Shown one piece after another: positions 2,960 to 64,000 of a DNA stretch of 64,000 bases. A program made the position numbers and the translations under genes. Every line of letters begins with the position of its first letter. Within the stretch, counting starts at the first letter, position 1. A model generated the notes under the pieces. It was not told where the DNA came from. It saw nothing but the letters and a program-made list of their open reading frames with translations, and ran no database searches. Origin of the DNA: Bryoerythrophyllum caledonicum (taxonomy: Eukaryota; Streptophyta; Bryopsida; Pottiales; Pottiaceae); NCBI GenBank assembly GCA_963971425.1, contig OZ020523.1, positions 12,272,867-12,336,866 on the forward strand, read 5' to 3'.

Positions 2960-4311
2960 AAGAAGCATGAACCTTATGAGTTTTCACCTTATGAGTTTTC
3001 AATTTACCCAACAACTTATTCATTAAAAGTCAAAATGTGTTCAAGGAATGTTTAAGCCTCTTTTCAATTCTTCAATGTTTTGAAAATGATTCTCTTTTCT
3101 AATACCTTTAAAAATTGGTGTAAAAGGAGTTTACATCACATACATCATTATGCTTCAAAATTAAGAAATTTTGTAGTGCAAAAATTTCATACCAAGTGAA
3201 GTCAAAGTTTACTAATCCTTGAAATGCCGGGAAGGAAAAAAAAAACCTTTGATTCAAACGCTAAAATCTTTCAATCCGTGCGGTCAATGTTTATAAAATA
3301 TTTTGTGAAGATGTGTTTAGTGGTATTGATTAAGATTCACGGTTAGATACTCAAACTTTTTTTTCCACTCTTTGTACTAGGATGCGCAATTTTGAAGTAT
3401 TATTGTTGAGAAATAGTCAAAGATTTTCAAGGGCTAATCTTTTGCCATTGGTTCTAAAAGTGTATGCCTTTACAAGGAAGGCAAAGTATACATGGGACAT
3501 ATGTTTTGGATTTTCGGTAGGTTCCTACAATTATTATTATTATTAATTTTGGATTCATGGTTTGAAAGTTAGTACCACTCAAAGATAGAAATGGGGACTC
3601 CAGGTAGCTCCAAATTTTTTCTAGAAGTCTCTATTGACATCGAGATTCTCCATTAAGGTAGAGAATATTACCATCTTTGAAAATGTAAAAAACAAATTCT
3701 TGTATTTAGTGTAAAAAAACATTTTAACACATTTTTACCTATTTCAGGGAAAAAAACTTCATTTTTTTAACATAAAACCTAGAGATCTTCATATTTTTCA
3801 CTTTTTATTTTTTCTACAACAATATGTGGTGTAAACCTTTTTATTGACCGTTTAGATTATCATTCTAAAACATATTAAATTCTCAAAAAAATAAATCGTG
3901 AATTGACAATTTTTGAACCTCCACTCCTTCCACACTTGTTTGAATATGCTACACCCTTTCCTACCTCTAAAAATTGTTGTATACGGATCTAACATCATGC
4001 TAAGCACAATGGTAAAATATTTAGACCTTGTGTAGTGCAATAATTTAATACCAAATGAAGTCAAAGTCTACTGATCTACACAACGCAGGGAAAAAAATGA
4101 ACCATTTTCTTGACTTCAAACACTATTATCTTTCAATTTGTGAGGTCAAAGTGTATGAAATTTTGTGAGTATGTTACTTAGAAAGTTTTTATGGAGATCC
4201 TATGGTCAAAAGAATAAATATATGGTTTTGTTTCTTCCTAACTCATTGCACTAGAATCAACAATTTTGAAGTGTTTTAGGTGTGAAATCGTCACGGGCTT
4301 TTAGGGATTAA
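2960..4311. repeat. Two degenerate TTAA-family copies
   Basis: About 3,080-3,436 and about 3,440-4,311 match blocks of better preserved copies. These include AATCTTTCAATCCGTGCGGTCAA at 3,265, a right end TTTTAGGGATTAAT at 4,299-4,312, and GGTTTGAAAGTTAGTACCACT at 3,559, which also occurs in the 54,256 copy. Neither copy codes for protein. The left boundaries are uncertain. Confidence 0.5.
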
Positions 4312-4378
4312 TCCTCTATACTATGTCCTATGAACATAGACTTGGTGCAGGAACAAAAATTTACTCTGTTCACGCCCA

Positions 4379-4870: not shown

Positions 4871-5840
4871 TTAACCCCTAAATTTCTTTGACAATTTCAC
4901 TCCAAAAACACTTCAAAATTGCTTGTTTTAGTGCAGTGAGTAAGGACAAAACCAAAAACTTTTACTTCTAGTTCTAACCGTAGGATCTCAATTAAGACTT
5001 ATTACTTAATAAGTCTTAATTTTAAAAAATTATGTAACTTACATAAAAAAATTCCTTAAGTTTGACTGTATAGATGGAAATATTATAGTGTTTGAAGTGG
5101 TTAAAAGGGTCCATTTTCTTCCTTGCGTTTCCTGGATCAAGAGACTTTGACTTCACTTGGTGTCAAATTTTTGCACTACACAAGTTCTAAATTCATTTCC
5201 ATCATGTTAAGCATGATATAAGTTCCTTGTACTCCAATTTTTAGAGGTAGAGAATGGATGTAGCATATTCAAAAAAATTGTGCAAGGAGTGTAGGTTCAA
5301 AAATTGTCAAATTGCTTTATTTTATTTTTGTAAACTTAGTATGTTTTAGAATGATAATTTGAATGGTTGATAAGAAGGTTTACACCACATAATGCTGCAG
5401 AAAAAATAAAAAGTAAAAAAGATGATGATCTTGAAGTTCTAAGCGATAAAGCAAAAGTTTTTTTGGTACCTTGCCCGACAATGTGCGAAAATGTTTGACT
5501 TGGATTTTAATGTTTTTTTCACTAAAGACAAGAGATTTTTTTTGACAATATGAAAGGAAATATATTATTAGCAAGTATTCAAAATATCACATTCAATCGA
5601 GTGTCCTAGCTAAAGTTTTTGGAGTTGCCCGACGTGCCCGCTTTCCTCTACTAAACTTCAAAATCCTATAACTTTTTAATTAAATGTCGGATTTAGGAAA
5701 AAATTAGACTCACACAAAGCCTTTAGTAAAGTCCATCTACATTAAAAATATCAAAGAAAACTATCAGAGAATTACACCATAGGAAAGTGCCCAAACCTTC
5801 TAGAGGTTCTAGAGGGGACTCTTGGAAATTTAGGGGTTAA
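4871..5840. mobile_element. TTAA-bounded non-coding element, complete
   Basis: The element begins TTAACCCCTAAATTTC (4,871) and ends AAATTTAGGGGTTAA (5,840), a perfect short terminal inverted repeat including TTAA. It is about 970 bp with no coding frame. TTAA target sites with a CCC terminus are the hallmark of piggyBac-like elements, so this is probably a non-autonomous piggyBac-type relative; no transposase is seen to prove it. Confidence 0.65.
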
Positions 5841-12861: not shown

Positions 12862-12870
12862 AATGGTTGG

Positions 12871-12906
12871 GGACGAGGCTATCGTGTGAGCGGTGAGCAG
12901 TGAGCA
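12871..12906 (+). repeat. Left terminal inverted repeat of the MULE
   Basis: It contains TGTGAGCGGTGAGCAG and matches the right end at 23,784-23,835 in reverse complement and the second copy at 62,331-62,382. It is built of short GTGAGC(G/A)G units and is therefore a small tandem repeat itself. Weaker similarity extends inward (GGGACCT.TAACC near 13,003). Confidence 0.8.
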
Positions 12907-13338
12907 ATTAGATTTGGATATTTTTGATCAAAAATAGTTCAGCATAGATGAAATTTAGAAAATCAGAATTTCCAAAATATTTTACTTTCTATAGTACAAT
13001 TTGGGACCTATAACCGTGGAATATTACTCCATAGTAACTGCTGAAAACTTATTTTGAAGATGTGTTCCGTCATGGGGTAAGTTAGAAAAATGAGTAAAAC
13101 TGCAACTACTCTCGTAGATTTTGTGAAAGGGAATTTGTTGTCTTTTAGATTCTATTAGCACGATGCACTTATAGTGGAGTTTAGGAAAAGCTTGTTTATG
13201 AAGAGTATTTTGATTGATACTATGAAAACCAAAAGAAAGGTGATATTGCAAAAAACAAGTAGTCGCCCTTTTAGTCTCACTACTGAATAAATAAATCAAG
13301 TGCTGGTTAAAAGGATTAGTTTGTAGAAACTGAACTAT
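12907..13338. other. Left subterminal region of the MULE
   Basis: Non-coding, about 430 bp. Part is similar to the corresponding arm of copy 2 (62,380-62,540), including a TATA.CCGTGG block at 13,010. It presumably holds the 3' end of the transposase transcript. Confidence 0.5.
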
Positions 13339-16300
13339 CTACAAGTGTAGGTGGTTCAACAACCCACTCTCTAGGACTCGCTTCACTTCATCGAAGCTAA
13401 AACTAGCTGCGTGCATGAATGTATCGGACTCTGAATCCAAACCACAAATGATTGTAAATACATAATAGAGGTGCTTACAATTGGCCCACTGACCACGCTT
13501 ATCAATTGCTTTTGTCGCCATGTCCTTGAAATTCGGGCATGTGCATGAAGGTAGCTGCGATATTGTCAAGAAATATTGTTGCACCTTTGGAGGTGCGCCC
13601 GAATCCAATGAGACGATGCATCCAAGGGCAGGGGCAGGAAGCATGCATAACTTGCGCACACTTCCTTTCAATGATAAGGCCGATGCACAATTGTTCGCAT
13701 GCTTGGTGGACGGGGTCTTTTTGTTGCGCCGGATATTTTTCCCTGATCTGCGAGTGGGATAATCGTCTGGATATGTTGGAGTCGTGTAAGCTGATAAGTC
13801 CACAAATAGTGGTTGGTCGTGAAAGAGCCATGCTAACGAAATCTCCTTCCGCTAGGGTAGTCTAAAGCCTGCATTCTCCAAGGAGAGGATCTCTTTGCGA
13901 GATAAATTGGTCCCCAACTTAATCGGCCATACCTCTGGGACCTCTAGTCTTGACATCACCCACTTTCGACGAGTGGCCTTCACGCATCTTTCAATGTCGT
14001 CATTGCAGAAGAAGAATTGCATAGACTCCTTCCTATTCTTCTTGTAGTTGTCCATCATACCAGTGTAGGTTGGAGCAGCAGTGCTCTTCCCATCTTGCAC
14101 AATCTGAGCTACGCACTTCTTCTTGGTGATGGCTTGTTGAGCAAAACATGCCTTGGCGAATGTCTTCGGAAGGCGTGCGATGTGCCATTCGGAAGGGTCG
14201 CATGTAGTATCCTCCACAACAATGATGTGGTGGCAATCGATTTGATGAGTGGGTCGGTGTGGTTCAAGGAGCGGCTCCTCTCGATCGGAAGGTGTAGGAG
14301 AATCAAGGGATGGAAGGTTGTAGTCGTTGTCATTGAGCACTGATCTGGTTTGGATGCGCCGTCTTGACATGCTAATCTTGTTAGGCCTGTGAGACTCATA
14401 TTCAGAACCAAAAGTTGTATCTGGCTTGCGTTTAAGAGAAACAAATACCTCTTCTCCTTCAAGGTGAGACGTTCTGGTGCACAACAAGTTGGCGACAAAC
14501 ATCTTCAAGAATGCTTCGTGAAGTGGTTTGGAGTTTTCACTTCGAGCCGATAACCTCTGAGCAGTTCTAAGCTTGAGATCTTCCTTTGATAGACAAGTAC
14601 CACGGCGCTCTCCTTTGAGGAACTGGTAATATGCTATGCACTGCATGAAGTCTCAAACAAAGTTGTCCACGGTTGCCACACAGAGGTCGCTCCCACGATC
14701 GTCGGATTGTTGTTTCCACTTCTTATGGATTGATTCTGCAAGATTACATGATGGCATTTCTGCAAGTTCGTCTTCAGTGAGATCCTACAGTTGTAAAATG
14801 GTGTCAAATTAGTCTTAGCATAGGATTTCATTAATGGGTGGAGGCAAAGTAGATTATTAAAAAAGATAAAGGAAGGTAGAGGAATTACTAGCTGCATGAA
14901 GCCACCCCACTGCCGGTAACGAAAGTACCAGAAGGCGAGCCAAAGCTCAAGTCGAGGAAGGCCTTGTTTAGATGTAGCTCCGGACGACATCCACCATGCT
15001 TGGATTGCAAGATATTTAGTATCAACCTCTCCCATGGACTTGGCATTCTGGTATTGCTGGCACAGTTTTCGGTGTTGAGCTTGGAGGTCCTAACGGATGT
15101 CAGCCTTGGTGTGCTTTTTCAGAGACTGTGTCTAATGAAAAAGGCAAGTCCTTTCCCTATCCACCATTTTCTCACTTGCTTCTCCACTTCCGTAGATGAT
15201 GCGAACAACGTTCCAATTAGCTCGGGCGCTATCGGCCACGAATCCCTTGAAATTGACTTCATTCACACCATGGCGCGCCATGACAGCATTCAGATTCTTC
15301 CATACAATCGACTGGGCTACAACGTCCTCCGATTGCATGTCACATATTACGATTGTCATGACCCAACAATAAGTGGAGTCGTACACGTGGCAGGCCATGG
15401 TAGTCCACGATCTGACACGTTTGACATGGTCAAACATTATCCAGGGGTTCTCAAGGTCACCCCCGGACTGCATTTGCTTCACCAAGTCAACTCTGCTGCG
15501 AGACCAAACCTTGGACATCTTGAAGACAAAGACCTTGTCCATGTCTGATCCTCGACCCGGAAACATATTATCTCGAACATAGTTCCAGGTGCTCGAGCCT
15601 CGAAGCTTGGTAATGTTGTCCATGATTCCATACCATCGCAGATGCCTAAAAGTGGAGACAATATTACAAATACTTCAATGGAGAGGTTAGATGCTTGCAC
15701 CGATCAAAGATTGGCAGCAACTCCGGGAGCTCCAAGGTCTTATATTCCTCACCTACCCTAGCCAAAAGGAGTGGCCCAAGTACTTCCTTCGCCGTTTCAA
15801 GCACAATGGAGGAACGAGTTGTTGATGGAGTTCGTTCCACGTGCTGACTAATCAAGCTCTCTCTCTGCTCAATGAAGTCACGGTAATCACCAGTCTTGAC
15901 TAGATGGTCGTGAGATCCTAAATGAACACATGCTCTCGTCATCTGTGGTGTTGAGGACACATAATATATCTTTGCTGGGCAAATTGCAATACATGTAGGT
16001 GGGACATTACATGTTTTGCAAACTAGTGTAGAACCGGTAGGAGGGCCGGATCCAACTTCAAACACTTTGTCAGATATTCCATCCCACTCAGTCTCATTCA
16101 CACCGGCAGTTCTATGGTCTTGAGATAGATACTCACAGTCGACATTGTCACAACGGAGGTGGCTTAGACATGAAGAGGTACGGAATGTAAGTTTCATATC
16201 GTTCTGAATATTAGACGTGATAGTGCAAGACCAAGCATGGCTATCATAACGTTTGTCCATGCCACGAAGCTGCTTGGCTGGGGTTTGCTGGCCATCGACT

Positions 16301-16992
16301 CCTATCGGAGGAAATTCAAATACAATGTCTCCATTGTATTGAGGCGGCAAAAATTCATCCAGTTGTAGTTTAATAGCATTGAAATCTATTCAGGGCAAGA
16401 CGTTTTTTGACCTCTTATGTACACTAAGTTTCAGTAGGGACTGAACTACGCTGATTGGTGAACTTGGTGAAGACATTGACGGCTCGCTGGAGCCTGACGG
16501 ACTGATAGGATGAGTCGACTCTTGGCGTATGGTTTACGGAAATAGCACCCTATGTTCTCTGTACTTTGGATCTAACCTTGAAAATTGGACGTCTTCATTG
16601 TTCAAGTCATCACTCAGCTCATAGATGGTCTCAAGACGTAGCTCTACTTTGACTTTGAAAAGCAATGGAGTGGTAATGCTAATAGTGAAAGACTCCCATC
16701 GAGTAAGGAGTTCAACGGAAGGTGCTGAAATTGACTCAGAGACTCCGTATCCTCGATACTTTCCGGGTTTAAGCAACCAGAATGTCTCCACATCGTTCCT
16801 ACTCAAAAACTGACCGATAGCAAGCGAGACTAGTCCCGTTGCAATGTCAAAAACCTCTTCCTCGATAAAGACAGATTCTTCACGAAATTGAAACCTCAGA
16901 CCTGAAGTTGTAGAAGTGACCATGGCATGACCATCCTCACCCAGTGGAAATGTAACTCGCATAGAATGCAAATCAACACGAATAAAGGCCAT
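13339..16992 (-). pseudogene. MULE-type transposase with SWIM finger, decayed
   Basis: Read leftward from the ATG at 16,992. An acidic N-terminal region of no known family is followed by a Cys/His-rich segment (about 16,190-15,880; C-x4-C pairs, then ACVHLGSHDH), which resembles WRKY/GCM1 DNA-binding fingers of MULE transposases. A DDE core follows: VYDSTY, then FVADSARANW, then ERTCLFH, matching the MULE order D, D, C-x2-H. The last exon (about 14,646-13,339) ends in a SWIM finger, CTCPNF...GQWANCKH. In-frame stops lie at 16,534-16,536, 16,390-16,392, 15,132-15,134, 15,090-15,092 and 13,852-13,854, and the frame breaks near 15,660. Between these the frame stays open for long stretches. A homologous C-terminus at 63,155-64,000 lacks the last stop, which shows that 13,852 is a mutation and not the natural end. 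Confidence 0.8.
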
Positions 16993-17964
16993 TGTACTCT
17001 AAGTAAATTGCAACCTCACAAAGACAGAATGAAATCGAAACCAAAGAGGGAGTTTAGAAGAGGCACAGAAGATTAAGTACATGCACACTCAAAAACTTCT
17101 TACAGGGACGAATGTAAACAATTAATCAGAAGTAAATATTGGGAGTAATCCAAGAATAAAATTACTTTAACTGAACAACCGTGAATGAGTTAGAAAACGT
17201 TACAAATTCTGTATATTTGCAAGTCCTATTCTTAAAAGTGAAAGACGGCGGATGGATGCAATTAGAGAAACTTTTAACAAATAGACGACGACACAGCTGA
17301 CGGTGTATAATTGCACTTTGACTGCACTGTATGATTGGAAAAAGATTGAAAGGTTGACAATCCATCATGTTGATGAATTAGAGTGACTGGATATTATGAG
17401 GGTTTTGAATTACGGCAATGAACAAAAATACACAGTTTTTGTATTATAAACCTGAAGGTTTGGCTTTTATCCTAAACCTTGTAACTTGACCGGGAAAGCG
17501 CGCAGACTTTTCTTGGGGGGTGACGGTGGGGACGGTTGATTGGCACGGGATCATTATTAGGGCGCCACGTGGTAGGACATGAGTCCTTGGATGAGTGTGT
17601 GTTGTTTGGGTTGGCCTGAGTTTTGAGCACAATGGATGGTGGGGTAAAATATGACAGAGGTCAGCACCCTATGCAACGATTCTTGTATTGGGGCTTCATG
17701 TTATTACTGAAGGCATGTAAGGAGTGAGGGAATAATGGGGGGCCATCCTTTGGAAAGGAATGGCTACTTGGTTGGCTTAGTAGTTCTTCAAGGCATTCCA
17801 GTCGGGCCCGAAGCATGTTGCTGGCACTTCCAATTTGATGAACATAGATATTTAATATTCACAATTAGTATTTGTCGTATGTGGTCATGCCATCATTGCA
17901 TTCTATTTTGCTTTGCTACTATCTAGACTAATAGATGAGTCTCTTGTCCAGCTTCCTGTAAACA
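16993..17964. promoter_or_regulatory. Divergent intergenic region of the MULE
   Basis: About 970 bp separate the starts of the leftward transposase and the rightward methyltransferase-like gene. They probably hold both promoters. A CCACGTGG G-box-like palindrome lies at about 17,571. No gene is supported; short ORFs here lack protein-like features. Confidence 0.45.
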
Positions 17965-20900
17965 TGGACATTAACGCTGGGGAATCTTCTCTAGCAAATC
18001 AACCGACGTTTGGTGGTGGAGGGAATTTTGAAGCTGGAGGGAATGTTGAACACATTGATGACCTATCAGAGAAGAAGACGAACCCTAGAGTCATGATGAC
18101 CTTTCTGGAGTGGACGAGGATGAGATGCGTAAGCATCAGAAGTTGAACTCAGATGCAACTATAGCAAGCTTGAGAGTGCAATGCACTAGTTCGTCACGTA
18201 TCTTTATTCCTCTTTGTAGAATGGTAGCTATGCCTATGGTGAGACCTACATTGTAGAGTGACCTTGACAAGCTTGAGCAAGAGTTTGTACATGGATATTT
18301 TGAAGGGGCTTTTGTCTTCTATGTGACAGTGACTAACGAGGATGGCAAAACCCAAGAGGTGACCGAAGCTCATAAGGAGAAATGGGGATCCATATGGAGA
18401 GCAAAGAACAGCGCGTTCAACACCTTCCTTCTCGCGAACCCTGAATTCGCACATGTGACCAGCCTCATGTTTTTTGTTTGTGATGGCAATCACAGGCGTC
18501 AAGCATGGTTAAATCACATTGAGCGTCTCCATAGGGCTGAGGCGTCGTGGTATTGTTTGGTGGACTCAATTCTTCCTGACACCAAAGACAAGATTGGAGT
18601 AGTAATGCAAGTCATGCATGACATCAACAAGTACGTAAATTTTCCACAAGAAATTCTTGAAGATCACTTACTTTTTATGCAATGATTGCTAATGACTTCA
18701 TTACTTTGTTTGCACACAGGCATACAAAGGATTCTCATGTAAAAATCAATATCGAGCACACCCTCTTTATGGTTCGTAAGTATGGTCTAATGTCTGTGGA
18801 TAACATTAAGGATGTCTTGTCTCCTTCTGATCTAAGGACATGCAAACGTACACAGAAAAAGACTTGGTACACTTTGCCTTTAAACGTGTTTACATCTTTC
18901 ATATTTCAGGTGCACATTTTCCTCCTAATTCATAAATCATAAATATTATTTATCATTTTGTCGTTTGGTATTAGTCCCGGTCTCTATTAATAGAAATGAT
19001 TACTATGCTATTTTTGAATGCCTATGTTGCCCATTCCTGGATGGCATTTTTGCATTAATGATTTTGAATTCCAAGAGTAAGCTGCTAGGATTGGACAACT
19101 AAGTCATTGCACTGTCTATGTTCATGATGCATTAGTGATGTTTGCATTTTCAGATATGTTACTTCACCCACTGTAATCATTGAATTTAGTATTTTTATAC
19201 TAGTTAACATATGGCTAGTAAACAAAGCTAACCTATGCCATATCACTTATTCTGTAGCAGCACGAACTCAGTCTCACAACCAACAAAGGTGTACGCCAAC
19301 TTGTTGAAGAAAATGATGGAGACGTTACTGCCTCAAAGAAGACCGCTGCAATGAAGTCTGCCTTGGCAAAGAAAAGCGTGGCACTGCGCGTGAAGATGGG
19401 AAAGCTTGTTGCAGTCGCGAACCCGGAGCTTACGGACGGTTGGCTGCAAGAGATAAGGACATAAATTCTAATAGTGAAGATTTATTTCTATCGGTTCAAC
19501 ATTTGGTTAGTATAAACTTAATTTGACTGTATTCTTTTTTAATTATCAAGTGTGGCACATGTAGATTGAGCGACACTACACGTTGAATTCTATTTCCTCG
19601 GAGCTAAATCTGGAGAAGCTGCAGCTTATTGCAACTTCAAGGGCATCGCCTAGCTTCAAAATCAAGTGGCTCGAATATTTTAATTCCTCTACCGCTACTC
19701 GAGAGGCTCGAAGGTTGCCACCAAAGCCTATTAACAAAGAGAGACTTGCCAACTTCCTGGTGAAGGCATGCTGGTGGGCAGGGGTAAGTTTATCATTCTG
19801 ATTTGCAGCTTATTCTATTTTATGTTTCATGATTTACTTTTGTATCAAATCAATGTTATCAACCATTTTAAATTTAATTAGTCTTGGTTGTTGAGACATT
19901 AAGTAGAAGCTTATTCTTTAATTAATTTTGCCTTATCAAGTATTTTACACGTATGAGTTCAGGTATTAGAGCAAGCGATGGTTTCATTTGACAAATTCAT
20001 GCGCGAGGATCAAATTTCATTTAATATGAATGTTGCTAGTGAGCATTTGTCCCTGATGGCTTACATTGAAGATTGTCAAATGAAGCTTTGGGCCCAGGCA
20101 TTCAACACCTACTTCAGAGGTCATGATTACTTCAAGAAGATTGACGACTTCGTGGGATTCAAGGGAACTGACTTAGTTGTCAAACGAGTTCTTTTTGGGT
20201 TTATATCACTTTATTAAGTTTATGTAAATTAGATGCTATCGTTGCATCAATTGTTTGAAATGCAATTTAATGCATGTGATTTTAAGTCCTTCTAAGAGTA
20301 GCCTTCTTTTGAAAATGAACTTCAAGTATGAGCTCTTACCGAAGAAGGCCATTTTAAAGGAAGACCTCCTGATTTTTCTTGAGTTCCTGGCTTGATCGGT
20401 CCAATGTTGCGTGCATGTTCTCTGCTGCTCAGCAACGCATCTGGGCAACTTCTCATCTTACTTTGGGATCCTGGTATCTCAATTGTGGGACAAACTTCAC
20501 TCCATCTTTTGAGATTGATCTGAAGAAGTCATAAGAGGCTATTGCTGAGTCTGGAGAAGAAATGAAAGATTTGAAGGATATAGAGGATGAGCATGAGAGG
20601 GCAAAGGCTCTCAAAAGGCGGCTTGAGGAGGACCGGAGGAAGGCGCAGAAAGTGAAAGAGGCCGAAGAGAAGGCAGAAGAGAAGGCCAAACTAAAGGCAG
20701 ATCAGAAGAATTCGAAGAAGGGCAAGAAAAAGGTGAATACAACGGGGGAGCAGGAAGGTAAGAGTCCCATGGCTCAAAGCCCCACTGTAAATTCTAGTTC
20801 ACAAGTTTGCACTATCTCTACTAGGGGCACTAAAAGAGACTCATCCTACGAGCAGCTCACTCAAGTCCCAATTCTAGTTTCTACTTTGGAGAATGAGAGC

Positions 20901-22854
20901 AAGGTAGATGAGTTCATATTGAACTCATCTTTGGACGAGGTCCTTGGAGGTGAATCAGGGACCTTAACTCCAGCCTACAACAAGCTGAAAACATTTATAT
21001 ACAAGGTAAAGTCCATGTAATCATACTTTTGTCAACCATTAATAATCTGAGTTCTTTGCACATTCCTTTCTATGCTTGTTCACGGTGGTCAACATGGCCT
21101 ACTTTACTGATAATTATGTTTGCATATACAGCACTCCAATGACAAAATCCGTCATTACAAAGGATCTGCAACGAACCACCCTTGTGTGGATATGATTCTT
21201 ATGGATATACCGGAAGGTCTTCCCGTTCGTGGGATATCCAAGCCAGCCACGATTGTTCTTGTATGGAATCAGGATGCCAAAGAATGGTTGAAGCCTATAT
21301 TCGACTTTGCCAATCAGCATCTTCAGGACAATGGTGCTATTAGAATTATTCACCCTTTTTGCTTGACCACAAAATCAAACATTCTTGGCTATTGCAAATC
21401 GTATGGCTTTGAAATTCGGAAGGAGTGGTGGGGGATGAATTGGCTCCACCTTACATCTCCTATGAATCCATCTATAACTGTAAGTCCCTATACCTTCATG
21501 ACTCAATTTGTTTTTCCGTTTCTTTCTTCAGAGTTTTACATTTGCAATTGGTAGGTAGTATAATGTCAACTTAGGCTCTGGGTGTATTTATAAAGTGGTT
21601 CATCAATGAGCAGCTGCAATTGATCCAAGGTATCCTTCAACTTCAAATTCTTGCTTCTAGCCCACGTGTAGCAATCAATTCCTTGGATTACAACTAGTGA
21701 ACCCGGATTAAACCAACTTAGGTTTTTTTCTTTGGGCCATCTTTTGATTTACATAACATAGCTTAAGCAACACTTTCGAGCCCCTAACCAACCTTCTGAG
21801 TTTCATCAAAAGTTGTATGCTTCCTAAACCACTCAAGGAATTAACTGACGAGTAGTTCCTTGTTCCAGACCATGCACTTTGGGATATGCTTGGCAGTGAG
21901 GTGCGAGCCTGGGGTGCCGAAATTGGACTTCTCTTTCCGGCCAATTCCGGCTCTTGATCGCCATGGGGTGGATGTAGCCCGTGACGATATTCTCCAAAAT
22001 TACGTTTCACGAGAGGAGCAGTTGATGAACAACACAATGCCATGGCGTGGACCACGAGAAAAATCAGTTCTTTTAATTCAAATGCTTATCGAAGCATCAA
22101 GTTTGCTTGGAGATGTTATTCTTGACTGCGCGGCAGCTACATGTTAGTGCTACTATTTCTCAAAGTTAGTTGAGTTCAAATTCCTTATATGATCAATTTT
22201 TGAAACGTACCTTTGTTCTTGGATTAATCCTCTAATTGTTTGTTTGCCAAGATCTTCCATTTGTGCCTGCCACAAAGTGAACGGCCACATTACGGCAGTG
22301 GAGGCAGATTCCAAAATCTTTGAGGTGCTACTCCCACCTCTGACTCGCAACACTGTAGTCCTTCTGGCGGAGCCCGAAGAACTTGTCACGAATTTAGATG
22401 ATATTGACGGGAAACCAATCGCCATCGAGAGGATTGTGAAGAAATCTTGTTTTAGTAAGTGAGTCTGCTCATAGGATTTCTTTTCAAATGGAATTTCTTC
22501 ACAATCGTACCTTACCAGTTTTCTTGTTTTGACATGATACATTTTGGAACTTCCAGATGCGGCACATAGACCTACCAAGTTCATCGCCCATTCTTCCATG
22601 AGCCGGAGTTCTATCCGAGCCCACCGAAGTCTTATGAACTTCCATCCTACGCGGAAGGAATTGCTAACCAACTAGCACCAAACTCAGTGGAAAATCATAC
22701 AAGTCGTCTACCTTCTGCGTGCCGTCGGGGCTTACAGTTCATCGACATTGAAGCCATTGAGTCCAGTGGAGAAGATTCGTCGGAGCCCGAGAGAGCCGAT
22801 ATGGATGCTTCTACCGCATCATCAGCTCGGAGCTTATCGAGTTACAGCATATAG
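17965..22854 (+). pseudogene. ParB-like domain + DNA amino-methyltransferase gene in MULE
   Basis: This is an intron-rich gene read from the ATG at 17,965 to the stop at 22,852. N-terminal part (18,120-18,909): CRMVAMPMVRPTL, then FVCDGNHRRQAW, then MHDINK; this is the layout of ParB/sulfiredoxin-type domains. Middle: exon 19,565-19,783 (clean AG/GT borders), exon from 19,963, then a Lys/Glu-rich coiled coil (20,562-20,740). C-terminal part: exon 21,132-21,479 with MDIPEG (motif IV position) and LQDNGAIRII; exon 21,575-21,629; then about 21,869-22,144 with MPWRGPREKS (motif X) and GDVILDCAAAT (motif I); then HITAVEAD (motif II). This IV-X-I order is that of beta-class N4/N6 DNA methylases. 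The tail FFHEPEFYPSPPKSYE ends at 22,854. Damage: stop at 18,254, stop near 20,531, frame breaks near 18,090 and 21,940, and a damaged splice acceptor near 22,250. Confidence 0.65.
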
Positions 22855-23783
22855 TGTTTTTTTTACGTATCTGTTCTGTTTCATCTAATGATATTATGAC
22901 TACTATCCCTTGCGTTACACTTACCGCTCATATTTTGGATCCCTTTATTATTTTCAACCTTGCTCTGCTTGGACGTTGGCTTTTCTGTCGTGATACATTA
23001 TGTACATTACAATCAGCTTCAGTTGGTGGCCTCCGAATTTACTTCCACATCTAGAGTTGTCTACTTCTTGACGTCTTTTACTTTTTTTATAAAAACCAAG
23101 TCTAGTCCATAGCTCTTTAAGTCCTTATGAAGCTCCTCCTCATTTTAATCACACAATGGGCACTGCGTCATAATTTTCACCTCCCTACTTCTAATTTCAG
23201 AGGTCGTGCAGTCTCTATTTACTAGTGCTTAAATTTTATTCTACACAACCTTGACCCCAAATTAGCCAAGGGGGACCCATTTAACTATGTCGCAGATCTA
23301 ACTAACCACATATTGAAGGACCATGGGAACAAGTTGTAGAATTTATTGAATAATTTAATATGGTGGAGAACAAATGCATAAAATAAAGTTAGTCATTTTT
23401 CCATTTACCTTCAGCAAGGTACTGTAGTTGTAGAGCTGATAGGGTCATCCAAAGAGGTTGAATAAGCCATATGTATAGATTATGTCCAAAGAGGTTCTAG
23501 GTCACATTCTGGAACGCAACAGTTTGATGTTAGAGTATCATATTATACCATGTGGGGTACATTAAAGTCGATAAGTTAAGGTCCCAAGTTACAAATTATA
23601 CTGTACATCGCACATGCTATACAACATTACATGTACTCTGAAAATTGAAGCTTATGCCTTTAACCCGCGGATATAGGAGCCATTACAACAATTGAATTGA
23701 TAAATATCTAAACTTCACCCGAACCATGCGGTTATAGATAATGAGTCATTTGAAAATAACTATAAAAAAACTTAGAAAAATTA
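22855..23783. other. Right subterminal region of the MULE
   Basis: Non-coding, about 930 bp downstream of the methyltransferase-like gene, probably its 3' UTR plus transposon arm. A TTGGGACCTTAACTT block (reverse complement, about 23,575) resembles the left arm near 13,000. Confidence 0.45.
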
Positions 23784-23835
23784 CTGCTCACCGCTCACTG
23801 CTCACTGCTCACCGCTCACACGACAACATTTTCCC
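23784..23835 (-). repeat. Right terminal inverted repeat of the MULE
   Basis: TGCTCACCGCTCACTGCTCACTGCTCACCGCTCACA-type sequence (split here into short units of GCTCACCG/GCTCACTG) is the reverse complement of the left end. It is followed by CGACAACATTTTCCC and then the target duplication AGTGGTTGG. Confidence 0.8.
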
Positions 23836-24262
23836 AGTGGTTGGTATTTTAAAAATAACTCCATATCAAGAAATTCCACGATATCAAAATTTGTGGTCAT
23901 GTTCAAGTTTTCATGCAATTGAAGATTCCTACTTTGTTTGTACGGCTATTGCTAAATCCAAATCATTATTGGTTCAAAGGTGTTGGAGAGCTTGTGACTT
24001 TGGTTTAGCATCTAGGGATCCCTTGATGCATGTCGTCAACAATTTCTACAATAAGGTTGTCATTTGTATCATGTTAGACTAATCCTTGTTGTTTAGTTTT
24101 GTTTGCAAACAAATGTAGAGTATGAATTGCTAAATGTATTGCAATCTATCCAAAAAAATAAATTAAGTCAACTTTTAGTAAGTGAAGGATCTCTATAGGT
24201 ATTTGAAGTCTTTCATAAGATTATTGTGATAAGATGTATATGTTTAATGCATAATTATTATG

Positions 24263-24345: not shown

Positions 24346-25293
24346 TTGACCTCTACAGGCCCAAGGCATTTTCACACCAAAAACACTTCAAAATTGCTCG
24401 TCCTAGTGCAATGAGTAATGAGGTATAAAAACAATTTATTTGTATATCTAATCGCAGGATCTAAACTAAGACTTATTTGTTAACGTCCTCACAAAATTTC
24501 ATAAACTTTGACTGCACGGATTGCAAGATTATTGTGTTTGAAGTAGAGAAACTTGTTCTTTTTCTTCCCTGCATTGAGTGGATCAGCAGACTTTGACTTC
24601 ACTTGGTGTCAAATTTTTGCACTATACAAGGTGTGAAAACATTACCATCATATTAATCATGATGTTGATTCCTTGAACACCAAGTTTTAGAGGTAGAGAA
24701 GGGATGTAGCATATTTAGAACAAATGTGCAAGGAGTGGAGGTTCAAAAATTGCCGATTCACGTTTTATTTATTTGTAAACTAAAAGTGTTTTAGAACGAT
24801 AATCCGAATGGTCAATAAAGAGGTTTACACCACATCTTGTAGTAGAAAAAATAAAATGTAAGAAATATGAAGATCTCGTAGTTTTATGTGGAAAAGAAGA
24901 AGTTTTTTTGGTACCTTGTCCAACAAAGTGTGACAATGTGCAAAAACGTTTAACTTAGATTATTTTGCTATTTTCTACTAAGACTTGTGGTTTTTCTTGA
25001 CAATATGAAAGGAATAATAATATTTGCTAGTATTGAAAATCTCACATTCAATAGATTGCCCTATTAAAGATTTTGGAGTTGCCTGTCGTGCCCGGTCTCC
25101 CCATTTGAAATTCAAAACCCTATAACTTTTTAATAAATTGTCGAATTTAGAAAAAATTGGACTCTAACAAAGCTTTTAGCAATGTCCATCTACAATAGAA
25201 ATTACAGGAAGGAATGTTCTGAATTGACACCATAGGAACCTGCCCAAACCTTCAAGAGTCCATCGAGGGGACTCTTGGGCCCTTAAGGGTTAA
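24346..25293. mobile_element. TTAA-family element
   Basis: About 950 bp, very similar to 1-816 over its right two thirds. The right end GGGCCCTTAAGGGTTAA closes at 25,293. The left end (TTGACCTCTACAGG) is worn. No coding. Confidence 0.6.
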
Positions 25294-32528: not shown

Positions 32529-33450
32529 TTAACTCCTAAATTTCTTTGACAATTTCACACCAAAAACACTTCAAAATTGCTTGTTTTAGTGCAATGAGTG
32601 AGGACGAAACAAAAAGCTTTTACTTCTAGTTTTAACGGTAGGAACTCAATTAAGACTTATTGAGTAACTTACATTAAAAAAATTCATTAAGTTTGACCGC
32701 ACGGATTGTAATATTATAGTGTTTGAAGTAGAGAAAAGGGTCCATTTTCTTCCCTTCACTTCATGGATTAGCACACTTTGACTTCACTTGGTGTCAAATT
32801 TTTGCACTTCACAAGGTCTAAATCCATTTCCATCATGTTAAGCATGATATTAGTTCCTTGTACTCCAATTTTTAAGAGGTAGAAAAAGGGTGTGGAAGGA
32901 GTGGAGGTTCAAAAATTGTCAATTTGTGTTATATTTTTTTGTGAACTTTGTATGTTTTAGAATGAGAATTCAAATGGTCAATAAGAAGGTTTACACCACG
33001 TAATGTTGCAGAAAAAATAAAAAGTAAAAAATATGATGATCTCAAAGATTTATGTGAAAAAGAAGCGGTTTTTTTGGTACCTTGCCCAACAATGTGTGAA
33101 AATGTTTGACTTGGATTTATATGCTTATTTCACTAAAGACAAGAGATTTTTTTGACATTTTGAAAGGAATAAATATTACTTGCAAGTATTGAAAATCTCA
33201 CATTCAATAAAGTGTCCTAGCAAAAGTTTTAAAGTTGCCTGACGTGCCCGCTCTCCCCATTTGAACTTCAAAACCCTATAACTTTTTCATTAAATGTCAT
33301 ATTTAGGAAAAAATTGGACTCACACAAAGCTTTTAGTAATGTCCTTCTATATTAAAAATATCAAAGAAAATTGTTCTGAAATTACACCATAGGAACCTGT
33401 CCTAACCTTCTAGAGTCCCTTGAGGGGATTCTTGGAAATTTAGGGGTTAG
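32529..33450. mobile_element. TTAA-family element
   Basis: It starts TTAACTCCTAAATTTC and ends AAATTTAGGGGTTAG. About 920 bp, closely similar to 4,871-5,840 throughout. No coding. Confidence 0.65.
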
Positions 33451-35186: not shown

Positions 35187-36127
35187 TTAACCCCTAAAGG
35201 ACCAAGTGTCAAAAATGGGCTTTTTGAAAGTTTGGTCACGTTCGTATGGTGTCAATTTCCAACATTCCTCTTTGAAATTTTTACTAATGAAAGTCATTAT
35301 CAAGACCTTGGTGGGAAAACATTTTTTTCCTAATTTGGACACTTGATGAAAAAGTTATAGGGTTTTGAATTTCAAACGGGGAGAACGGGCACCTAGGCAC
35401 CTCTAAAAACTTTTGCTAGGACACTCTAATGAATGTGAGATTTACACTACTCGCAAGTAATATTGTTTCCATTCATATTGTTAGAAAAAGTTCTTCTCTT
35501 TAGTGAAAAACAACATACCAACCCAAGTCAAACATTTTCACACATTGTCACTCATTGTTGGGCAAGGTACCAAAAAACGTCTTCTTTTCCACATAAAACC
35601 TAGATATCTTTATATATTTCACTTTTTATTTTTTCCACAACAATATGTGGTGTAAACCTTCTTATTGACCTTTCGGATTACCAATCTAAAACATATTAAG
35701 CTCACAAAAAATTAAAGTGTGGATTTGAACCTCTATTCCTTCCATAGTTGTTTTGAATATGCTACACCCGTCCTTTACCTCTACAAATTGGAGTATAAGG
35801 AACTAACATCATGCTAAACAAGATGGTAATGGTTTTAGACCTTTTGTAGTGCAAAAATTTGAGATCAAGTGAAGTCAAAGTCTGTTGATCCATTGAACGC
35901 AGGGAAGAAAATGAACCATTTGCTTGACTTCAAACACTATAATCTTTCAATTAGTGCAGTCAAAATTTATGAAATTTTGTTAATATATTACATAATAAGT
36001 TTTTATTAAGACCTTAAGGTCAGAACTAGAAATCAAAGTTTTTGTTTCCTTCTTTGTTCATTGCACTAGAATCCAACAATTTTGAAGTGTTTTGGGTGTA
36101 AAACCGTCACAATACCTTAGGAATTAA
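35187..36127. mobile_element. TTAA-family element, type with AAAGGACCAAG end
   Basis: The left end is TTAACCCCTAAAGGACC; the right end is CTTAGGAATTAA. The interior is the reverse complement of the blocks seen at 1-816 and 24,346-25,293 in its left half. About 940 bp, non-coding. Confidence 0.6.
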
Positions 36128-42954: not shown

Positions 42955-44240
42955 AAATGCCAACTACTACACTATTTGTGAATTCCAGTAAAGATTGCAA
43001 TATGATTGTTTTCACTTATGCATGTTTAGGGTATCAAAAGTAGAAGAATGTTATGTGTACATTTTGATAATTAAAAACTACAAAGATTTTAATTACATTT
43101 TGAAAAAACAACCATTTGAAAGCGTTATTTGAAAAAAGTAGAATGTGGATATGGAAGGAAAGTAAAATTGCAAGTACCAAAAAAAATAAAATTTGGAGGA
43201 GAAATATTGAGAATAGATAGAACTTAGATATGGAAGAGAAGTGGAATCGCATACAAAGGAAACATTTGAAAAAATAAGATTGGGAAAATAAAAAGTTAGA
43301 CTTGAAAGGAATGTGACATGGAAACTTTAAAAAGAAAGGAAAATCTGAAGAACGAAACATTTGGAAAAGGGAACATTTGAGAAAGGAAACATTTGACAAA
43401 GGAAACATTTGAAAAGGAAACGTTTGAAAAACGAAATATTTGAAAAAGGAAACAATTGAAAAATGAAACATTTGAAAAGTAAACATATGATACAGTAAAC
43501 ATTTGGAAAAATAAAGTATTGAAAAAGTAAACATTTCAAAAAGTAATCATTTAAACAAGTAAATGTTTTGAAAAGATTGAAATATTTGGAAAGGAAACAT
43601 TTGAGAAAAGAAAAAATTGAAATTCTAAACTTTTCAGAAGTAATTTTTTGAAAAAGTATGCTTTTGATAATGTAGAATTTTGCAGAAGTAATATTTTTCA
43701 AAAGTAAGGGTTTGAAAAAGTATGGGTTCCTGAGAAGTAAACTTTTGAAAAGTAAACCTTTTTTAACGTAATTTTTTTTGAAAGTAAACTTTTTCAAAAG
43801 TAAACCTTCTCAAAAGAAAAATTTTCCAAGAAGAAAACCTTTTCAGATGTAAACTTTTTCTATGTAAACCTTTTCAAAATTAACTTTTTCAAAGTGAACG
43901 TTTTCAAAGTGACTTTTTCAAATGTAAATTTCGGAAAAGATTACTTTTGAGAAAGTATGGGTTTTGAAAAGTAAAGTATAGTAAAAGTAAAGGATTGGAA
44001 ACAGGTGAAAAAGGAAACGTTTTGAAAAGTATCATTTTGAAAAAGTAAACCTTTGAAAGTTAAAAGATTCAAAAGAAATCATTACATAAAGGAAACAATT
44101 GAAAAACTGAAGTTTTGAAAATGTTAAGTTTTAGAAAAGGAAAGGCATGGAAAAAGTAAACTATTGAAAAAGTAATGATTTAAAAGAAAAATATGTGAAA
44201 AATGCAACTTTTTCAAAAAGCAAACTTTTCCAAAAGTATC
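42955..44240. repeat. A-rich minisatellite, second copy with shared flank
   Basis: The flank ATGCCAACTACTACACTATT and the following segment match 817-900. The body is GAAAAAGGAAACATTT- and GAAAAGTAAACTTTT-like units over about 1.1 kb. Long minus ORFs (43,034-43,534 and 43,327-43,797) with repeated F/S/N/V residues are repeat translation and not genes. Confidence 0.75.
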
Positions 44241-45249: not shown

Positions 45250-46290
45250 ATGTGAAGTTTGCAATTTTTCGCAGTCTTTGTGAGCATTCAGAAACTTACA
45301 TGATTTGTTGTCACAGTTGTTTTGAAGTGATTGTGAGATTCTAGCAGGGGAGGCGCTGTTGCCCTATTTTGCTATGAAGGGACGGATCGTTTGATGTTGA
45401 TACATTCTCGCCTGAATACTTGAAGGTGACAATAGGGTTCAGAGAGAGAACTTCTACTTGGTTTGATAATCTGGGCTTTTTTGTCTTGGAAAGGGGGAGA
45501 GACATTTTGTTTGAGTAGCCTTTCTGTAACGGAAGTCGCTTTTGTCATGTTGCAGGTGCCTGAGCATGGTGCAGGGCATCAAGGGATCAGGTATTGAGAG
45601 AGTTGTTACGTGAATTATTGCCTACAATTATTTTTTGTTAAATCGTGCTAAACCCTGCTCAATGTGCAAGTCTTTTTTGAGGTTGTAACCGGGGATGCGA
45701 TGTTGCCCTAATTCTCTGCAGTGTTGTTCTGAAGAGTAATCTCATTGTTATATAGCCTCTGCTTGGTTGGATAGATTACGATGCCTTGTCTTTTGCTTCC
45801 TTTGTGTAGGGAAGGAGAATATATTTACTCTTAGTTACCTCTCTGTAACATAAAATTTCAAAATTTGAGTGCAACTATGCATTACATTGGCAGTTTCTCC
45901 TGATTTTGGTAATTTAGGAAGCTCTCCCTAAACATGAAGATGTAATGTATTTTGAATCCCAAAACCTCATATAACTGCCAAATTATTGAATATCTCCATT
46001 CCTTGTCCACTGCGGCTTTTCTCATGTACTATTTTGGCTCGAGTTGCAGGTGCCTGAGCATGGCTGAAGGCTGCTGCAAGCCTTCAAGAAATCAGGTATC
46101 GACAAACTCACGTGAAGTATTGCCAACAATCAGTTTTTATTAGCCAGCTGATGCTCAATGGGCATGTCTTTGAAATTAGGCGATCTGCTCTTAGTAACCT
46201 CTCTGCATCTCATTATGTCATGTAACATTTCGGCTTAATGGTGCAGGTGCGTGAGCATGGATTGAGGGCATCAAGGTGAAGAAATTCGTT
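45250..46290 (+). promoter_or_regulatory. Leader region with triplicated exon-like module
   Basis: A module with acceptor GCAG then GTGC(C/G)TGAGCATGG occurs at 45,554, 46,047 and 46,245. The first two end in an ATCAG|GTAT donor-like site. Related intron text (TAGTAACCTCTCTG..A) precedes the copies. Unit spacing is about 493 and 198 bp. They look like duplicated 5' UTR exons of the transporter gene. The third copy runs directly into the coding exon and creates a tiny upstream ORF (ATG GAT TGA at 46,257). Confidence 0.5.
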
Positions 46291-62162: not shown

Positions 62163-62334
62163 ATGATGGCAATTTCAGATGAAATTCGTGCTCGCATCAT
62201 AGGTTTGAGTGAGGGAGGATTTAGAGGAGTTCAAATTGCTGCTACTATTGGAGTTCCTATTAGAACAGTTACAAGGTTAGTAAAAACATTTAGAGAAGAT
62301 GGAACCTACAAGCGCAAACCTTGCGGTGGAAGCA
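62163..62334 (+). pseudogene. Tc1-like transposase N-terminus, truncated
   Basis: Open frame from the ATG with the helix-turn-helix DEIRARIIGLSEGG...VQIAATIGVP..TVTRLVKTF and the linker REDGTYKRKPCGGS. It is cut there by the MULE end. The same segment in copy 1 (10,908-11,080) has several stops, so this copy kept a better sequence. Confidence 0.8.
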
Positions 62335-62382
62335 GCGACGCTATCTTGTGAGCGGTGAGCAGCGAGCGGTGAGCGGTGAGCA

Positions 62383-63154
62383 TAAAAAATCCTGAAATCT
62401 GGATTTTTTTGGTCATTTTTTTGGGGAAAAAGTGAAATTAGTGATTTTTTCAGCAGATCATCCCATTTTGGTGACATATTTTCCATAAATTTCTAATTTT
62501 AGAAACTACCCTATAGCCGTGGTGTACTGCGAAATTGCATGTTTTTTTCTTTATTTCGGTTTTTTAGAGTCCCCTGTTTTAGTTGAAAGGTGTGTCATAA
62601 TTTTTTCCCATGAAGCTCCTACAATTTGTAAAGTGCCATATTGGAATGAAAAGCACATATTTACTTAGGTATAGGGTTTACGCATTGTGGTAGAATATCA
62701 TACGAAGCGGACAATTTTTGACCGTACTTGCTAATTTATAATAATATTGATCTTCAGAATCAACGGGAATCACCTAGGTATTAAGTGGATATTTCACTGG
62801 TATTAAATCGGTACCAAATTCGAATTACATGAGAGGGAAAATGTTTACTACGAAATGCACGAAAGTCACCTTTGCCTTCCATGCATATCATTCGCACAAA
62901 TCGCCAGGACAATTCCCAGAATATTGGCATAGGCGATTTCTAATGACTTATGTATAAAATCGTCACCTTAAACCATAGAACACGCTAAGTACAGGATTCT
63001 ATTGCTCAGAATAATATAACGGAATATAATAACATATTAAACTAATTCATGACCATCAGCTACAGTCATGTAATCAGGTACGGACCGAGGATGTATAGAT
63101 GACGACCTCTTGAGCATTCAAGAGATATTAATAATTCTGGTTGCGACGCCTTCC
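62383..63154. other. Subterminal arm of MULE copy 2
   Basis: About 770 bp of non-coding DNA between the terminal repeat and the transposase stop codon. No ORF of interest. Confidence 0.45.
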
Positions 63155-64000
63155 TCACGCTCGTTTAGTGATGTTAGCAAGCTCGAGAATGCGCATAACT
63201 TCGTTAAAGCTGTAGCTTGGAGCATGCATGAACAGGTCCTCTTTGTAATCCATCTTACATAGATAACGTAAGACGTAATATACATGCTTGCAATACTTCC
63301 ATTGCCCCTTCTTTCCCAACGCTTCGGATTGCATCTTCAAAAAATCTGGACATGAACATCCTGGGAGGTCTGTAAACGTGACGCAATAAGACTTGTCCTT
63401 CCCCGTGTCAAGAGTGATAACGCATCCCCATCCCGGATACGGTATGGCTAACAGATTCGAGACGTAGCAGTTATTCATAAGAGCTGCGCTTGACCACTTG
63501 TTACGTTGGTCAATTGTGGGAGCATCTGTTGTCCTACGAATTGCGTAGCCATTCCGAAAGCTGTGGTGAGAATTCGGATTTGCTGGAATGGGGAAGTGAG
63601 ATCGCGGAAGCGGCATGTCCATAGACACTTGGAATTGTCGTCGTGGTGAAAGAGCCCCACGCTGTTGCAATTGGAAACCTGCTTCCTCCAATGCTAAAAC
63701 CTCATGCACAGCCAAATTGGTGCCAAGTTTCACAGGCCACGATATTGGAACTGATGGCCAATCCATCACAAACGCTTTCTTCGACCCCTTTACACAGCGG
63801 CCTACATCATCTGGACAAAACCAGAACTCCGCAGTAACATTACGGGGTGATCTGTAATCCTTCTTCATATCCGAATAGGTGGGGGCAGGAGTTCCATGAC
63901 TTCCACATGAAACTTTGGTGTTGCAAGGCTCACCACTGTCAGCCTGCAATGCTTGGCATTTTCGAGCTGACTTTTTGGGGAGCCGAGCAATGTGCCACTT
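63155..64000 (-). CDS. MULE transposase C-terminal part with SWIM finger (partial)
   Basis: A continuous open frame from the window edge (WHIARLPKKSARKC) to a stop at 63,155. It aligns throughout with the last exon of copy 1: APTYSDM, CPDDVGRCVKGSKKAFVMDW, PVKLGTNL..HEVLALEEAGF, and ends with the SWIM finger CSCPDF...GKKGQWKYCKH. Unlike copy 1 it has no stop in this stretch. The finger is known to bind DNA or protein in MULE transposases. The DDE core and N-terminus lie outside the window. The frame being open suggests a younger or still coding copy. Confidence 0.8.
   Translation of the reverse strand, partial: KWHIARLPKKSARKCQALQADSGEPCNTKVSCGSHGTPAPTYSDMKKDYRSPRNVTAEFWFCPDDVGRCVKGSKKAFVMDWPSVPISWPVKLGTNLAVHEVLALEEAGFQLQQRGALSPRRQFQVSMDMPLPRSHFPIPANPNSHHSFRNGYAIRRTTDAPTIDQRNKWSSAALMNNCYVSNLLAIPYPGWGCVITLDTGKDKSYCVTFTDLPGCSCPDFLKMQSEALGKKGQWKYCKHVYYVLRYLCKMDYKEDLFMHAPSYSFNEVMRILELANITKRA

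Follow-up and report, generated by a model that had tools for sequence, protein, structure and literature searches.

The window analyzed here, a 64,000-nt stretch of contig OZ020523.1 from the moss Bryoerythrophyllum caledonicum, contains a transposable element at positions 12871-23835. Re-reading of the sequence agrees with the preliminary description of one unit with matching ends, a target duplication equal at 8/9 positions and two divergent genes, and shows 7-bp tandem repeats at the ends. Both genes are multi-exon; the minus strand carries the left one (16992-13357), the plus strand the right one (~18128-22854). The element belongs to a large family and is decayed, with in-frame stops in both genes and an altered splice donor. 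Its features, and a second element in the window, are as follows (MTase, methyltransferase; Y2, a better-preserved relative).

12862..12870, no strand: left target-site duplication AATGGTTGG, 8/9 positions equal to 23836-23844
12871..12906, plus: left terminus, GGACGAGGCTATCG core and three 7-bp GTGAGC units; core common to relatives
13357..16992, minus: decayed transposase gene, located with the Y2 protein in tblastn at 63-77% identity
18128..18637, plus: right gene, DGNHR exon (ParB/Srx-like by motif), with 66% identity to Y2 and a single in-frame stop
18715..20654, plus: right gene, middle exons (no assigned domain) and the beginning of a charged region, from tblastn of Y2 exons and three-frame reading
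21132..21479, plus: MTase-like exon with motif IV, DIPEG replacing DPPY
21869..22142, plus: MTase-like exon with PWRGxREK and motif I (DCAAATC in the window copy)
22252..22454, plus: last exon of the MTase-like domain, its 3' splice site placed by eye
22557..22854, plus: C-terminal exon of the right gene (frame 22570-22854), start placed by eye
23783..23835, minus: right terminus, five 7-bp GTGAGC units and core ending TTTTCCC
23836..23844, no strand: right target-site duplication AGTGGTTGG, compared with 12862-12870
62330..64000, plus: another such element, much diverged, whose left end lies in the window and which runs past it; boundary approximate

The element opens with GGACGAGGCTATCG at 12871 and closes with CATTTTCCC at 23835. 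Within the window, TGTGAGCGGTGAGCAG occurs exactly at 12885 (plus), 23805 (minus) and 62347 (plus), and a search allowing up to three mismatches returns nine matches against 0.12 expected. The second element at 62.3 kb has 7-bp repeats at 62348 and 62369, and the lineage that starts there retains both genes in L030 and L031, at 25-52% identity. A left-end core, GGACGA(A/G)GCTAT, is common to the window copy and the relatives Y2, Y4, Y12 and C6b. Two genes in the window are plant-like, judged from the names of their matches.

Better-preserved relatives measure 16.4-16.9 kb and carry the same two genes, two of them (Y4 and Y12) between perfect 9-bp duplications. Y2, Y4 and Y12 share both the genes and the ends, and Y4 and Y12 are 84-93% alike over longer matches. 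Target duplications were compared for these three, the window copy, C6b and C15a; the left end of other copies is unplaced. The duplication of C6b is perfect over 9-10 bp, that of Y2 is uninformative, lying inside a CAA repeat, and C15a has no matching duplication. No copy with both genes intact was found among those read: Y2, as read here, has a stop in one middle exon, and the transposase has two in Y4 and one in Y12. The preliminary description had asked whether further copies, each between its own target duplications, carry the same right gene. They do, and this copy comparison rejects a local insertion of a host gene.

The family has a high copy number and a two-gene architecture, and both parts of its right gene are linked. 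Of 1744 first-look candidates for the DGNHR exon and 1651 for the MTase exon, 150 places each were scored, and every one matches. Among the best 60 MTase exons, 52 lie 1-9 kb downstream of a DGNHR exon ranked in the best 100, compared with 0.05 by chance, indicating that the right gene belongs to the transposon. The genome offers a very large natural set of lineages, at least two of them with near-identical copies. The Y2-type motif IV exon is found at six places, stop-free and with 98-100% protein identity.

Every complete element read is bounded by tandem 7-bp repeats (GTGAGCR) and has the transposase on one strand and the accessory gene divergent from it. The triple repeat gives 945 + 890 matches (overlapping ones counted), against 1 + 1 for a reversed control. 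Between positions 1 and 26.4 Mb of C1, neighboring triple repeats less than 30 kb apart form 15 inward-facing pairs and one outward-facing pair. In the same region, 5/14 MTase exons have an array within 3.5 kb downstream versus 0.06 at random; the other 9/14 lack a strict array there. The units lie mainly at the ends of the window copy, with 3 + 5 in the outer 150 bp and 1 + 1 elsewhere; the corresponding counts are 3 + 4 and 2 + 4 in Y4, 3 + 5 and 3 + 4 in Y12, and 1 + 5 and 3 + 2 in Y2.

The element had been described as a MULE. MULEs duplicate 8-11 bp of target, usually 9, and the family fits this length (9/9 in Y4 and Y12, 9-10 bp in C6b, 8/9 in the window copy). MULE, Rehavkus and MuDR elements have 9-bp target duplications and transposases with a D-D-E core containing C-x-x-H and a SWIM C-terminus; Rehavkus elements also have tandem-repeat ends, as does the moss family. 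Reading by eye locates a DDE-like core with CLFH at ~14.9-15.7 kb of the window and a SWIM-like CxC..CxH at ~13.4-13.6 kb; by the same reading, FDHVKR, CDMQSED, ADS..ANW and TCLFH are common to most transposase copies. The window gene has six in-frame stops in the stretches matched by the Y2 protein in tblastn. Unlike the known elements, the moss transposase yields no match to PF10551, for which the Y2 protein was searched to E 5, and its core together with the C11 lineage to E 10. Its SWIM profile match is weak (E 0.51). Likewise, none of the 138 places matched by PF10551, among 150 scored from 384 candidates, lies in the window. Membership is based on duplication length and motifs, and we call the family MULE-like.

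The right gene does encode DGNHRRQAW (frame 18257-18685) and MTase-type motifs, as the preliminary description had it, but its motif IV reads DIPE rather than DPPY. Its DGNHR signature is invariant in 10/10 members of set A2 and is present in the C11 lineage. The proposed ParB homology finds no statistical support. PF02195 (ParBc) is absent from all Pfam scans of the window protein and its relatives, and hhalign against ParB returns a probability of 0.1; a profile of greater diversity and changed settings failed as well. In an hmmsearch with a phage-ParB profile, 0/10 real sequences reached the top 15, all of which came from 200 shuffled controls. Weak matches were obtained to DUF1015 (3/10 sequences, best E 0.031) and to the ParB-like phrog_1033 (5/10, best E 0.066). 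NCBIfam returned just unrelated weak names and the PDB unrelated chains alone (best eL24, 0.0095). A pattern-seeded search of GTDB genomes and viral contigs found no relatives of the DGNHR profile, and the 96-aa DGNHR stretch had no phage match in tblastn at E up to 10. A DGQHR domain is linked in the literature to GmrS/DUF262, for which a ParB/Srx fold is predicted (PMC4619093). The moss protein bears a DGxHR-type signature, and a motif by itself is insufficient to place it among ParB or sulfiredoxin proteins; "ParB/Srx-like" therefore denotes the motif.

The DGNHR exon is under purifying selection in one subfamily, from which all 21 pairs compared are drawn (dN/dS 0.09-0.40). For the MTase exon, dS was usable in just 4/36 pairs, all at ~1.1 or more. 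It is highly improbable, and already largely refuted, that a host or prokaryotic gene was caught by chance in the manner of Pack-MULEs and has no role in transposition. The absence of DGNHR, middle and MTase exons from 4/12 old copies in tblastn agrees with such a capture, but the gene is found in lineages only 25-52% identical, lies divergent to the transposase wherever both were read, shares introns in nine sequences and has a low dN/dS in one subfamily.

Homology of the C-terminal part to the MTase family is firm from profiles and alignments. Against PF01555 (cut-off 26.7), Y2 scores 33.7 bits, L064 34.4 and the C11 lineage 31.8, all above the threshold, while the window protein alone stays below it (E 0.021). 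With the threshold at E 1, all nine sequences of set A1, which includes Y2, are listed as matches, the best at 1e-8. The CcrM alignment spans the MTase domain, hhalign against phage enzymes gives 97.9, and a search of phages at E up to 10 returns 600 records, the best among the matches listed at 2e-7. A pattern-seeded search of viral contigs found no relatives of the MTase profile. Like the beta-class amino-methyltransferases (CcrM 6pbd, DpnA 5hek and phage adenine methylases), the moss domain matches PF01555, has motif IV before motif I and aligns over most of its length; in contrast to theirs, it is split by introns. The conserved splice donor following exon 21869..22142 is altered in the window copy, and the C-terminal frames of Y2 and Y4 match the C-terminal exon.

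The catalytic motif IV departs from the family form. Motif IV of N6_N4 MTases is [DNS]PP[YFW], with an aromatic Y, F or W in position 4, and their SAM-binding motif I is of the DPFxGSG type. Of the 16 sampled moss sequences, 15 carry an acid (E or D) at position 4, in the form D-x-P-[ED], and one keeps an aromatic (DQPF). Motif I is kept in most members as LDxxA[ST]TG[AS]S, the first Gly being lost, so that AST or AAT mostly stands in place of GSG. The significant MTase homology supports that part of the earlier proposal of an acquired prokaryote-type methylase that could modify DNA, but active methylation is doubtful because of the acid in 15/16 sequences. A working N6-adenine or N4-cytosine MTase, guided by the DGNHR domain to the DNA of its own element, is in our estimate unlikely. 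Homology spanning motifs IV to I speaks for it, as do the motif IV D and P, motif-I Asp and post-I Glu kept in most members, and phage relatives also vary at motif IV position 2 (DIPY, DLPY). The DQPF lineage (C3/L064) also speaks for it, with eight near-identical places and 34.4 bits over positions 2-219 of PF01555, but 6/8 of these places have one TGA in the matched exon, and the acid at position 4 and the altered motif I of most sequences count against activity. The large set of lineages that keep the domain with this altered motif makes self-methylation directly testable with native long reads.

Since almost all sampled copies share one kind of change in motif IV, the protein may instead bind DNA or counter silencing; retention of the domain with position 4 shifted in one direction suggests that binding, not catalysis, may be its conserved job. 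The reading we favor, with a probability of about 0.55 as a whole, is that the window element belongs, as a decayed copy, to a large MULE-like family of multiple lineages whose accessory protein binds the terminal arrays, and whose MTase domain derives from beta-class amino-methyltransferases of the CcrM/DpnA type and is mostly non-methylating. From the DGNHR domain, the protein runs through a middle region and a charged stretch to the MTase-derived domain at its C-terminus. It is most likely sequence-specific and would act on the 7-bp arrays at the ends of its own element, the GTGAGCR units being a simple candidate target; such binding could help transposition or work against silencing by the host. 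The MTase domain would, in most lineages, be a binding or SAM-sensing fold, or have changed chemistry, rather than producing 6mA or 4mC. More tentatively, a prokaryotic amino-methyltransferase may have been turned, in a plant transposon superfamily, into a conserved module that binds nucleic acid and either does not methylate or reacts differently. With the DGNHR domain fused to it as reader of the 7-bp arrays, it would form a transposon-encoded iteron-like or centromere-like (parS-like) complex that bridges the ends.

Arabidopsis offers a parallel in VANDAL, a MULE-type element. The targets of its VANC protein are not known to be confined to the termini, and we know of no MTase domain in VANC. 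VANC is described as TE-encoded and sequence-specific, with targets that are often tandem repeats (PMC5735166). The moss family similarly combines a MULE-type element, an accessory protein and short tandem motifs as candidate targets; it differs in the MTase domain and in repeats that are mainly terminal. An anti-silencing factor of this kind, itself non-methylating, which binds tandem motifs and removes host 5mC silencing, would suit the tandem 7-mers of the end arrays and the selection seen for one subfamily in the DGNHR exon. The concentration of repeats at the ends rather than along the element counts against it, and we consider it unlikely.

The element had been thought to be without a described plant counterpart. 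This holds for land plants insofar as no ParB-MTase transposon gene was seen in open-access literature listings, but algal transposons with such accessory genes were already reported. In Ectocarpus, Sola1-1_Ec32 encodes a 1104-aa protein with ParB-like and N4/N6-MTase parts, its gene and that of the transposase lying on opposite strands; earlier cases from green and red algae are cited (Iyer 2011; Petroll 2025, Bostrychia), the accessory genes are proposed to mark the DNA of their own element, and self-methylation is suggested for the Sola1-1_Ec32 protein (PMC12477816). By description rather than by sequence, the moss family resembles Sola1-1_Ec32 in being a large DNA transposon with an accessory gene opposite the transposase and an N4/N6-type MTase in its product, the ParB part being present by motif alone. 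It differs from that Sola1 element of a brown alga in variant features, namely its plant host, MULE-like type, 9-bp duplications, 7-bp terminal arrays and the acid in motif IV.

The window (C11:12272867-12336866 of the 437-Mb genome) contains exact matches to a 16-bp terminal sequence at 12885 (+) and 23805 (-), and nine matches at up to three mismatches against 0.12 expected. These sites and the flanks bear out the matching termini and duplication that the preliminary description placed at 12871-23835. The element and the three better-preserved copies read at full length are:

12871-23835, window element, starting GGACGAGGCTATCG and ending CATTTTCCC
Flanks of the window element, target duplication AATGGTTGG / AGTGGTTGG
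Y4, 16.9 kb, target duplication TTCTGTATA (9/9)
Y12, 16.7 kb, target duplication GTCTCAACC (9/9)
Y2, 16.4 kb, within a CAA repeat that makes the duplication uninformative

Scoring 40 of 215 candidates for the right end turned up 62 matches in the genome. The analysis took in 12 old copies with 81-89% identity across this end, and the surroundings of the third terminal match. The preliminary description had proposed looking for target duplications of their own in other copies, and these are found in Y4, Y12 and the old copy C6b, which has TGTTTACAA(G) at both flanks. The flanks of another copy, C15a, show no matching duplication. The comparison covers the copies with a located left end (window, Y2, Y4, Y12, C6b and C15a).

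The termini carry tandem 7-bp GTGAGCR repeats. Counts of GTGAGC on both strands, outer 150 bp versus interior, are 3+5 versus 1+1 in the window element, 3+4 versus 2+4 in Y4, 3+5 versus 3+4 in Y12, and 1+5 versus 3+2 in Y2. Across the genome, GTGAGCRGTGAGCRGTGAGC has 945+890 matches, overlaps included, and the reversed pattern 1+1. In the first 26.4 Mb of contig C1, the part listed, 60 hand-merged clusters include 15 inward-facing neighbor pairs within 30 kb versus one outward-facing pair. An array follows within 3.5 kb downstream of 5 of the 14 methyltransferase (MTase) exons in this stretch (random, 0.06), and none does for the other nine. A scored MTase exon lies just upstream of 8 of 25 repeat-only clusters from the right-end search; two more, judged by eye outside the scripted test, have no listed MTase exon. 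Tandem Repeats Finder detected no other array common to the scanned stretches. Inward-facing arrays 2-3.4 kb apart occur at C1:6787998-6790971, C1:10275248-10278669, and C1:16058061-16060060; such closely spaced pairs are probably short non-autonomous relatives.

Both genes, the transposase on the left and the accessory gene on the right, are part of the element. In Y2, the transposase has long open frames (718 and 490 aa); the accessory gene runs on the opposite strand and, as read, has a stop inside one middle exon. The transposase exon contains two stops in Y4 and one in Y12, so no copy is demonstrated with both genes intact. The right gene is detected by tblastn in 8 of the 12 old copies, and is not found in C14a, C1c, C6b, and C9a; DNA of its 3′ end is still present in C14a despite this null result. 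A top-100 DGNHR exon lies upstream, at a distance of 1-9 kb and in the same orientation, for 52 of the 60 best MTase exons from the motif-IV search, where placement at random would give 0.05. Two introns within the MTase domain hold the same positions in the nine sequences compared, and the L064 lineage lacks the second, a single frame spanning motif I.

Judged by its 9-bp duplications and the order of its motifs, the element looks MULE-like, with membership short of proof. This much of the MULE assignment in the preliminary description stands; the profiles do not add to it. PF10551 matched 138 places in the genome (150 of 384 candidates scored), none of them at the window, and the SWIM match of the transposase has an E-value of 0.51. 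Pfam yields no credible match for the transposase, only unrelated names (E 0.05-4), and a search of solved structures with its first exon found no relative. An ordinary PF10551 MULE transposase fragment (C14:21490079-21490330, in L010) adjoins one old copy.

The accessory gene is abundant. All 150 scored places (of 1744 first-look candidates) match the DGNHR exon at E 9.3e-42 or better, many of them stop-free, and all 150 scored of 1651 candidates match the Y2 motif-IV exon, six being 98-100% identical. Contigs C5 and C13 have none among the matches listed in the right-end, DGNHR-exon, motif-IV-exon, PF10551 and MTase-lineage searches; C4, C6, C12, and C14, by comparison, are 22-32 Mb long. 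For the DGNHR exon, dS is usable in 21 of 78 pairs, every one from the L035-L041 subfamily, and these give a dN/dS of 0.09-0.40. The motif-IV exon gives the same range, which is weak evidence of selection because only 4 of 36 pairs are usable, at dS 1.1-1.9.

The MTase domain is firmly placed. PF01555 is listed for all nine spliced domains at E ≤1 (best 1e-8); Y2, the sole score shown of the nine, reaches 33.7 bits against a cut-off of 26.7, which L064 (34.4, profile 2-219) and the C11 lineage (31.8) also pass. The window protein alone fails it (E 0.021). All nine domains match phage MTase families, and a profile finds DpnA (2.2e-6) and CcrM (3e-6, positions 3-219 of 261). Using hhalign, three phage methylases align with probability 97.9 (E 3.9e-13, 198 columns), with unrelated comparisons near zero. 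L064 (C3:24476-25487 and seven more places, 97-100% identical, six of the eight with one TGA) is a distinct lineage with an almost full-length PF01555 match.

Motif IV reads DIPY, DPPY, or DLPY in the phage relatives. Its fourth position is E or D in 15 sequences (all nine domains, the C11 lineage, and L076, L077, L078, L079, and L080), which include close relatives and so represent fewer independent lineages. L080 also has E for the first D, L054 has Q for P, and among the sequences sampled only L064 has DQPF. The aromatic residue of motif IV stacks on the flipped base; with an acid in its place, ordinary N-methylation by these proteins seems unlikely. A further MTase lineage (C12:5874416 and others) has open frames of up to ~564 aa or more across the motif-IV stretch, with DVPE in the two read.

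The ParB-like identity proposed for the right gene fails statistically. DGNHR is invariant in all ten members and the C11 lineage, and PLCR, VR, and a late N are likewise kept. Pfam and NCBIfam scans give no ParBc or DGQHR-named match to this domain; the best weak matches are DUF1015 (0.031, 3/10), phrog_1033 “ParB-like” (0.066, 5/10), and an ArsR-type HTH name in NCBIfam (0.035, 4/10). The PDB returns unrelated chains only (best, ribosomal eL24, 0.0095), and hhalign against eight phage ParB domains gives a probability of 0.1, in register at DGNHR. This leaves the label “ParB/Srx-like by motif” only. PMC4619093 links a DGQHR domain to GmrS/DUF262, for which it predicts the ParB/Srx fold.

ParB-MTase accessory genes of transposons are a kind already known from algae (PMC12477816). 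The present family extends it by its plant-type host, its 7-bp end arrays on a MULE-like element, a very large and diverse set of copies, and a motif IV that is consistently changed. As a working model of an accessory protein recognizing short tandem motifs, VANC (PMC5735166) comes closest. Among the open-access papers listed, no land-plant report of such an element was seen.

Other features of the window are:

46255-47562, Nodulin-like gene (PF06813, E 3.6e-72)
52772-53332, importin-alpha-type C-terminus (Arm_3, E 2.9e-22)
6-815, 5035-5839, 24481-25292, 32666-33449, dispersed repeat, direct
3750-4312, 35572-36050, 54565-55111, dispersed repeat, inverted
1145-1791 and 43165-44214, A-rich blocks, 41 kb apart, of imperfect ~16-bp units (AAACATTTGAAAAAGG-like)
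62330-64000, second element, opened by the same 7-bp repeats and running on into L030/L031

The two host genes are plant-like, and we take them to encode an NFD4-type transporter and an importin-alpha-like protein. The dispersed repeats form a family of ~0.8-1 kb whose pieces are 63-85% alike to reference copies. The second element (from ~62.3 kb) contains both genes, at 25-52% identity to Y2, and its motif IV is DVPE.
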